Shown: positions 2,249 through 51,970 of the stretch, piece after piece
Position numbering within the stretch: the stretch's first letter is position 1
Layout of the letters: each line of letters opens with the position of its first letter
Source of the DNA: an uncultured delta proteobacterium
GTDB taxonomy: Bacteria; Myxococcota_A; UBA9160; JAFDET01
Direction of reading: 5' to 3'
DNA: 64,000 nucleotides
Assembly: GCA_947259215.1 (NCBI GenBank)
Contig: CAMYLJ010000010.1
Location: 73,891-137,890 of the forward strand
Made by a program: the position numbers and the translations under genes
The notes under the pieces: model-generated
What the model was told of the DNA's origin: nothing
Databases searched by the model: none
The model's input: the letters and a program-made list of their open reading frames with translations, nothing else

Positions 2249-3850
2249 CTACGGCGACTGCGGAGTCTCGATCGCGTGCAGCTCGCGGCGCAGGAGCTTG
2301 CCCGAGGCCGAGCGCGGCAGCGCGGCGACGACGCGCAGTGCCCGCGGAGCCTTGTAGGCTGCGAGCTGCTCGCGGCAGTGGCGTTGCAGCCCTGCCAGGT
2401 CCGGCGGCTGCGCTGCGTCCCCGGGTACGACCCACGCGACGACCCGCCGGCCCAGGTCCGGATCCGGCTCGCCCGTGACCGCGGCCTCCGACACCGCCGG
2501 GTGACGCTCCAGGACGGCCTCCACCTCGGCCGGGTAGACGTTCTCGCCGCCGCTCACCACCAGGTCCGAGCGCCGGTCGAGGATCTGCAGGAAGCCGTCC
2601 GGCCCGAGGACGCCCAGGTCGCCCGTGTGGAGCCAGCCCTCGCGCAGGGCGGCCGCCGTGGCCTCCGGGTCGTCGTGGTAGCCGGCCATCAGTGCGCGGC
2701 CGCGCACGCAGATCTCGCCGGCGATGCCCGCGGGCTGATTCCGGCCCTCCGGATCGCGGATCGCCAGCTCCATCCCCGGGATGGGACGGCCCGCCACGTC
2801 GTCGCGCCGGCCGACCTCACCCACGGGCAGGGTGGCGACCTGGGAGCAGGCCTCGGTCAGACCGTAGCTGGGAAGGGCGGGGAGGCCGCACTCCCAGGCC
2901 CGGCGCAGCAGTGCCGGCGGGCAGGCGGCGCCGCCGACGAGGATCGCGCGCAGCGCGCGCGTCGGCGGCGGGTTGCCGCGCACCTCGAGCACCCGGCGCA
3001 GCATGCTGGGCACGAAGGAGGCGATGCTGATGGCGCCCTCGTCGAGTGCGTGGGCGGCGCGCTCCGGGTCGAAGCGGTCGTGCAGCACCACGGTCGCTCC
3101 GAAGAGGGTGGCCCGCACCAGGATCGAGAGGCCGCCCACGTGACAGAGGGGCAGGCATGCCAGCCAGCGTTCTTCGGGCGGAGTGCCCAGGTGAGCGGTG
3201 GAGCCGACGGCGCTCCAGAAGAAGGCGTCCGAGCTGAGCAGGGCTCCTTTGGGCTGACCGGTCGTGCCCGACGTGTGTAGCAGGGCGAGGGGCGCGTCGG
3301 GGGCCGGGGGTTCCTCCGGCGATGTCCTCGCGCGCAGCGTGGCCGTCGGACTTGCTCCCAGTCCGTCAGCGCGCTGCGGATTACGCCTCCGGAACCCCCG
3401 GCCCCCGACGCGCTGTGATTGAACGAGAGGCGGCGCTTCGGTCAGGGCTGCGGTCGAGGCGACGTCCAGGTCGCCGAGTTCTGCCGCTGCGGCGGCTGCC
3501 TGGTCCTCCAATGGTCCGCCGGCGTGGACCAGGATCCGGGCGCGGCCGTGGCCCAGGGCGAAGGCGTGCTCGGCGGTGGTGTGGCGGGGGTGGAGGGGGA
3601 GGAGGGTGGCGCCGAGGAGCTGGGCGGCGTGGAGGGCGTCGGCGGTGTCCGGGTGGTTGCCCGTGAGGGCGGCGACGACGTCACCGGGGCGGACGCCCTG
3701 GGCGGCGAGGCCGCCGGCGAGGCGGCGTGCGCGGTCAGCGAGGGCGCGCCAGGAGAGGGTCGTGCCCTCGGGTGTGACGAGGGCGGCGGCGTTCGGCGTC
3801 GTCGCCGCGCGCGCGAGGATCCAGGCGGCGCCGGGTGCGGCGGCGCTCAC
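2249..3850 (-). CDS. menE: o-Succinylbenzoate-CoA ligase MenE, carrying an in-frame palindromic insert
   Basis: An AMP-forming acyl-CoA synthetase of 533 residues that activates o-succinylbenzoate in menaquinone synthesis. Adenylation motifs are clear: LLHTSGTTGQPKG (about 190-202), YGLTEA, the HTGDLG region, and a C-terminal lysine in SASGKLLRREL. The GTG start at 3850 overlaps the menC stop (GTGA). It is longer than usual (450-490 aa is common) because residues about 147-186, just before the ATP-binding loop, are encoded by a palindromic repeat that has a second copy at 51863-51970. That segment is arginine-rich and unlike the rest of the protein. The reading frame is intact, so the enzyme may still work. 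The specificity call rests mainly on operon context. Confidence 0.9.
   Translation of the reverse strand: MSAAAPGAAWILARAATTPNAAALVTPEGTTLSWRALADRARRLAGGLAAQGVRPGDVVAALTGNHPDTADALHAAQLLGATLLPLHPRHTTAEHAFALGHGRARILVHAGGPLEDQAAAAAAELGDLDVASTAALTEAPPLVQSQRVGGRGFRRRNPQRADGLGASPTATLRARTSPEEPPAPDAPLALLHTSGTTGQPKGALLSSDAFFWSAVGSTAHLGTPPEERWLACLPLCHVGGLSILVRATLFGATVVLHDRFDPERAAHALDEGAISIASFVPSMLRRVLEVRGNPPPTRALRAILVGGAACPPALLRRAWECGLPALPSYGLTEACSQVATLPVGEVGRRDDVAGRPIPGMELAIRDPEGRNQPAGIAGEICVRGRALMAGYHDDPEATAAALREGWLHTGDLGVLGPDGFLQILDRRSDLVVSGGENVYPAEVEAVLERHPAVSEAAVTGEPDPDLGRRVVAWVVPGDAAQPPDLAGLQRHCREQLAAYKAPRALRVVAALPRSASGKLLRRELHAIETPQSP
3292..3413. repeat. Palindromic dispersed element, copy 1 (inside menE)
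   Basis: Two perfectly complementary 23-nt arms (3292-3314 and 3391-3413) flank a 76-nt core. The core shares two blocks with copy 2 on the same strand. Positions 3317-3336 match 51881-51900 at 19 of 20 bases. Positions 3360-3392 match 51925-51957 at 33 of 33 bases. The 23 nt between the blocks are not conserved. The arms are not the same sequence as the arms of copy 2. The whole unit is translated as part of MenE without a stop or frameshift. No transposase or target-site duplication was seen. Confidence 0.85.
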
Positions 3851-51862: not shown

Positions 51863-51970
51863 GGGGGCGGGGCAGCCCTGCGGCGATGGCCTCGCGCGCA
51901 TCGCTGCCCCCGGGATCCCCCGGAAGTCCGTCAGCGCGCTGCGGATTACGCCTCCGGGCTGCCCCGCCCC
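51863..51970. repeat. Palindromic dispersed element, copy 2 (valS upstream region)
   Basis: Arms 51864-51877 and 51957-51970 are perfectly complementary over 14 bp and enclose the same core as copy 1 at 3292-3413, in the same orientation. The 33-nt block 51925-51957 is identical to 3360-3392, and 51881-51900 differs from 3317-3336 at one base. The arms here are GC-rich in a different sequence from those of copy 1. The element lies between the divergent valS and membrane-protein genes, so it would be in the 5' leader of valS, where it could form a hairpin. Confidence 0.85.

Follow-up and report, generated by a model that had tools for sequence, protein, structure and literature searches.

The locus at positions 51,863 to 51,970 raises the question of how a repeated element can keep the same core from copy to copy while its arms differ in sequence and still pair perfectly. 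The window, which is the whole stretch of 64,000 nucleotides analyzed here, carries two such copies. An earlier note on this DNA proposed that the element copies its neighboring flank in inverted form whenever it inserts, or that a stem is held by selection, and considered that the mechanism may be new. The answer depends on three points: whether the arms belong to the element or to the host, whether the element moves, and what keeps the two arms complementary.

Structure of the Element

The core is conserved between the two window copies as the earlier note described, in blocks of 33/33 and 19/20 bases. The arms likewise differ between the copies and yet are perfectly complementary within each; the 23 bp given for copy 1 are correct, and the 14 bp given for copy 2 proved to be 15 bp (Table 1). 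Copy 1 is placed in frame within the MenE-like gene, in the opposite orientation, where it occupies the variable linker that precedes the LLHTSGTTG motif. Upon folding, the copy at 51863–51970 is far below its shuffles on both strands (z −3.2 and −3.5). Rfam covariance models gave no match, and a permissive threshold gave chance matches only.

Table 1. Parts of the two window copies and the gene that carries copy 1.
Feature	Position in window	Strand	Remarks
Copy 2 left arm	51864..51878	+	GGGGCGGGGCAGCCC, 15 bp
Copy 2 core	51879..51955	+	A type, 77 nt
Copy 2 core parts			T-S-C loop, P2 GGCG/CGCC, ATG/TTA loop, P3, P4 GCGCGC, ~25-nt variable tip
Copy 2 right arm	51956..51970	+	Perfect complement of copy 2 left arm
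Copy 1 left arm	3292..3314	+	23 bp
Copy 1 core	3315..3390	+	A type, 76 nt
Copy 1 right arm	3391..3413	+	23 bp, perfect pairing
OSB-CoA ligase (MenE-like) gene	2249..3850	-	Carries copy 1

The hairpin is built of the arm (P1), a TSC/TSC loop, P2 (GGCG/CGCC), an ATG/TTA loop, P3 (TCC/GGA), a TC/TGC loop, P4, and the tip, which beyond P4 is variable in sequence and nearly constant in length; the tip loops of the copies in the own genome of the window are mutually unrelated. The T/C and C/T mismatches adjoining P1 are invariant in 31/31 copies. Among the P1 pairs of these 31 copies, 484/496 (97.6%) are Watson–Crick, 2 are G-T, 6 are A-C, and 4 are other combinations, and each position from the third outward shows three or four pair types. 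Differences affecting both sides of P1 are mostly transversions (459:147, in pairwise counts over related rows, which are not independent events). P2 covaries as well, with GC in 24 and CG in 6 of the 31 copies. Covariation counted over 17 copies is 0.479 versus 0.108 in shuffled data (0/500), and 0.05–0.08 when slid. P1 and P2 of G013, G027, and G048, read by eye, are wholly different yet complementary. A separate observation concerns the G009 loci L230–L268, where many young copies have C, T, or G in place of the A of the tip's GGATTA; this site is strikingly variable although the G009 core is otherwise constant.

Copy Number, Types, and Distribution

The own genome (G000) is a 5.7 Mb draft, sampled in 20-kb stretches, and all the compared genomes are also drafts. 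About a dozen clear copies came out of a DNA search in the own genome, pattern searches added a few, and at least 22 are recovered by a covariance model constructed from 17 copies. The model also matches in G009 (~46 copies), G027, G048, G013, G023, G036, G035, and G040, all from the same order of uncultured Myxococcota, across which more than 100 copies occur. With at least 22 copies in the own genome, the element is no product of chance. An exact-core scan of named genomes matched one Myxococcota MAG (of the family); six further exact-core matches, devoid of the 5′ block, were discarded, as they look like chance in coding DNA. No flanking genes common to different genera were found.

The element is short (about 107–180 bp), non-coding, and dispersed. 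Over 1.24 Mb of the own genome, all perfect inverted repeats whose arms reach 13 bp were compiled. Nearly all of those whose arms reach 19 bp and whose spacer is 60–150 nt enclose the family core, the exception being a member of the GGGGACGTTGGTT repeat family. Once that family and the short-loop plain hairpins are set aside, the core between arms of this length is of one of three types: A (~76 nt), B (which is 125 nt long or B-like), and E (~76 nt). The E-type core has GCGCGC...GTCCGTCAGCGCGCT in common with the A type. Types A and C, together with a B-like form, are present in G002 and G003, which belong to another genus of the same family.

Several arrangements accompany the B and C types. 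In the B-like copies L171:16033-16200, L171:16315-16475, and L196:3570-3681, the normally mismatched loop beside P1 is fully paired. B copies occur as convergent pairs between convergent genes. C-type elements (G002/G003 loci L087, L091, L090, and L076) form tail-to-tail pairs with the 3′ blocks 56–57 bp apart, and such pairs, having two different arm types, make up a composite unit.

Origin of the Arms

Copying of the host flank in inverted form at each insertion would make the arms copy-specific by mechanism, and A-type arms do stop abruptly at copy-specific lengths (15–33 bp). Over their first 20 nt, however, the between-copy identity of A-type arms is 0.59 versus 0.38 in shuffled data (maximum of 2,000 shuffles 0.44), compared with 0.96 for the two arms within one copy. 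This consensus signal comes from the core-proximal part. Past about 15 nt, the likeness between copies is no higher than in shuffled data, yet the arms are still complementary, and flank copying may therefore contribute at the outermost arm. An alignment of MenE homologs, intended to tell the host arm from the element arm in copy 1, was set aside, since the linker is too variable.

Sharing of arms between loci also argues against flank copying. L007 of the own genome and L031 of G002, from another genus, have arms identical at 15/16 pairs, with the 16th compensated. E-type copies of the own genome have GGGCGGAGCGGGnnCTCGC-type arms in 4/5 cases and the left flank GCGGGGCGG, or nearly so, in 4/5. 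Among the G009 arms, three types are matched (7, 5, and 8 copies) and one, the C/A type, is one-sided (8 copies), so that in this genome the copies share arms as those of a normal MITE do. The G009 arms sit inside longer terminal repeats, the terminal inverted repeats being CTSACAGGSTTGCCGARAATCGGC ends, and in the own genome the terminal inverted repeats are the arms only. In G022, which belongs to the genus of G009 but to another species, the site orthologous to G009 L231 is empty and shows a single TGA without arms or a palindrome. The expectation that one arm equals the host sequence of the empty site is contradicted here by the absence of either arm. Against this consensus, the common and cross-genus arms, and the armless empty site, the claim that each insertion inverts its own flank is very unlikely to hold, and for G009 and the E type it is already contradicted.

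The sequences show that the arms belong to the element, with which they are inherited, and not to the host. Since the two arms are element-borne and change in concert, their differences require no new insertion mechanism. In the own genome the arms presumably look copy-specific because the copies are old and diverged.

Mobility and Position Relative to Genes

The element has moved. The mobility implied in the earlier note is borne out by the G009 insertion that is absent at the orthologous G022 site and by the 3-bp target duplications of young G009 copies, which are TCA/TCA in 14/28 and TGA/TGA in 11/28 (TSA in 25/28). No target duplications were seen by eye in the own-genome copies.

Insertions are concentrated at the ends of genes. 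Within 1.16 Mb of the own genome, in which gene calling relied on a simple codon score with two window genes as its training set, 12/16 A/B copies begin no more than 60 nt after a called stop on the same strand, against a null of 7.3%; a further two come after an uncalled stop. The exceptions are both window copies, one lying between divergent genes and the other, copy 1, antisense in its gene. In G009, the insertion falls exactly on a TGA stop in 12/28 cases (coding score >15) versus 3.3% of other nearby TGAs, in a small null (n = 61). The gene in G009 keeps its stop because the duplicated triplet, TGA/TCA, is often the stop codon itself. A preference for a stop-codon type was considered for the own genome and rejected; TAG at many copies is background, since TAG makes up 49.5% and TGA 47.9% of the stops.

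A plain hairpin, GCCGACCCAAGAC-loop-GTCTTGGGTCGGC, recurs at L139:7605, L154:2214, L157:15658, L167:399, L167:12578, and L195:15181, and is perhaps a common terminator. The position after stop codons, together with the occurrence after stops of a small number of plain hairpins whose left arms are G-rich, is what would be expected if the core inserted into the loops of existing terminator hairpins, whose old stems would then be the arms. This origin is extremely unlikely: the plain hairpins of the own genome are mostly shorter, with arms of 10–17 bp, one copy is in a gene, arms are common to several loci, and for G009 it is contradicted by the G022 empty site, which has no hairpin.

Maintenance of the Pairing

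Arms that are near-perfect within copies and diverged between copies could also result if every transposition used one arm as the template for the other, in the manner of LTRs, which would make them identical at birth. The same one-sided difference is present in 8 G009 copies; thus, an arm mismatch survives transposition, unless these copies are recombinants, which they could be. Copying at transposition is accordingly quite improbable. The one-sided C/A type also means that mismatches are not repaired at once.

A further possibility is that the elements are mobile and that selection on the transcribed RNA, as a 3′-UTR hairpin, terminator, or structured RNA, is all that holds the stem, acting through compensatory mutations. 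The sense-strand position right after stop codons, the conserved internal loops, and the covarying P2 are consistent with it, as is the excess of A-C over G-T in the arms (6:2), A-C being G-U on the opposite strand. On the other hand, G-U is nearly absent (2/496) in highly diverged stems and most differences that affect both sides are transversions, so there is no sign of the usual wobble route. From one copy to another, about 40% of the arm positions differ, and divergence of this extent with so few G-T pairs and mostly transversions is unlike drift through G-U intermediates. The antisense copy inside a coding gene, the copy between divergent genes, and the lack of an Rfam match also speak against selection on RNA as the sole cause, which is a possible account, albeit a somewhat unlikely one.

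The explanation favored here, and probably the correct one, is an order-wide, non-autonomous, MITE-like hairpin family with inherited arms, moved in trans, whose arms are matched mainly at the DNA level. The copies would have been moved by a transposase acting in trans, and the tip would have been retained because mobility, or else a function at gene 3′ ends, requires it. In a GC-rich hairpin of 15–33 bp, a mismatch may be repaired or spread by template switching, and selection on the stem is a possible helper in this process. The concerted change of the arms around a conserved hairpin tip suggests a stem that is upheld by template switching during replication or by selection. In E. coli, quasi-palindromes are known to become perfect through template switching within the hairpin (PMC7202029), and the same process has been put forward as a means of maintaining RNA hairpin stems (PMC8794818). 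In the present family it would be the main force keeping the arms matched, in which case the tip mismatches must be held by selection. In a variant of this scheme, judged unlikely, the family consists of 3′-end hairpins that insert harmlessly at stop codons and have a host-serving tip (transcript end formation or stability), and the arms drift freely, their perfection being due to template switching and not to selection.

Search for a Mobilizing Enzyme

Neither G009 nor the own genome yielded a transposase with matching ends. The 95 end matches in the G009 draft assembly belong to short elements only, none of them an autonomous parent. Many described MITEs are likewise without a known parent. 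The earlier note had looked to a matching RAYT or reverse transcriptase, and neither could be assigned: the own genome has three Y1_Tnp genes, no GGATTACG core is found within 1.5 kb of them, and no RVT_1 match was obtained in the own genome. The 3-bp TNA-type duplication is reminiscent of some IS5-family elements, which offers a lead.

Another hairpin family of the own genome, AGGGGACGTTGGTTCAGTAGTTCAGAAACTG, has arms of 28–33 bp and mostly tiny loops (L148:1064-1129, L158:6811-6875, and L182:18517-18588). The sequence GGGGACGTT and its complement stand on either side of one Y1 transposase gene (L198), and this hairpin and gene therefore look like a REP/RAYT pair.

Comparison with Known Systems

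Prokaryotic MITEs, among them Correia, ERIC, QMITE, and Chunjie, have been reviewed (PMC10969869). The present family resembles them in being shorter than 500 bp, non-coding, bounded by inverted repeats, multi-copy, and mostly intergenic, with target duplications in the young G009 copies. It differs from them in that its arms diverge between copies yet stay matched, its constant part is the mismatch-bearing hairpin tip, its association with stop codons is strong, and it is GC-rich.

ERIC copies share their arms. The family is similar to ERIC in being an intergenic, imperfect palindrome of similar size, and would be set apart by arms that differ between copies. ERIC insertions at gene 3′ ends alter transcripts in some cases (PMC10969869).

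As with the Rickettsia palindromic elements, a palindromic repeat is tolerated in frame in a gene (copy 1 in menE). In-frame insertion is not the rule here, in contrast to those elements: this is the one in-gene case in the window genome, most copies follow stop codons, and the lineage is another one. REP/BIME sequences with RAYT are likewise short hairpins, and the C and B types form inverted pairs; in contrast to that system, the Y1 transposases of the own genome are not flanked by the core, and one adjoins the GGGGACGTT hairpin family instead. Quasi-palindrome template switching is known to convert inverted repeats from imperfect to perfect, whereas here it is proposed for a mobile family whose tip mismatches are conserved.

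With its many copies, conserved tip mismatches, and arm changes that are mostly paired and hardly ever involve G-U, the family represents a natural experiment on the persistence of long perfect stems. It also suggests a strategy of harmless insertion, in which the stop codon itself is the duplicated target, and it serves as a warning that covariation in a mobile hairpin is by itself no proof of a functional RNA. Set beside the systems above, it is called here a stop-codon-associated, MITE-like hairpin family, i.e., a known kind of element with new traits.
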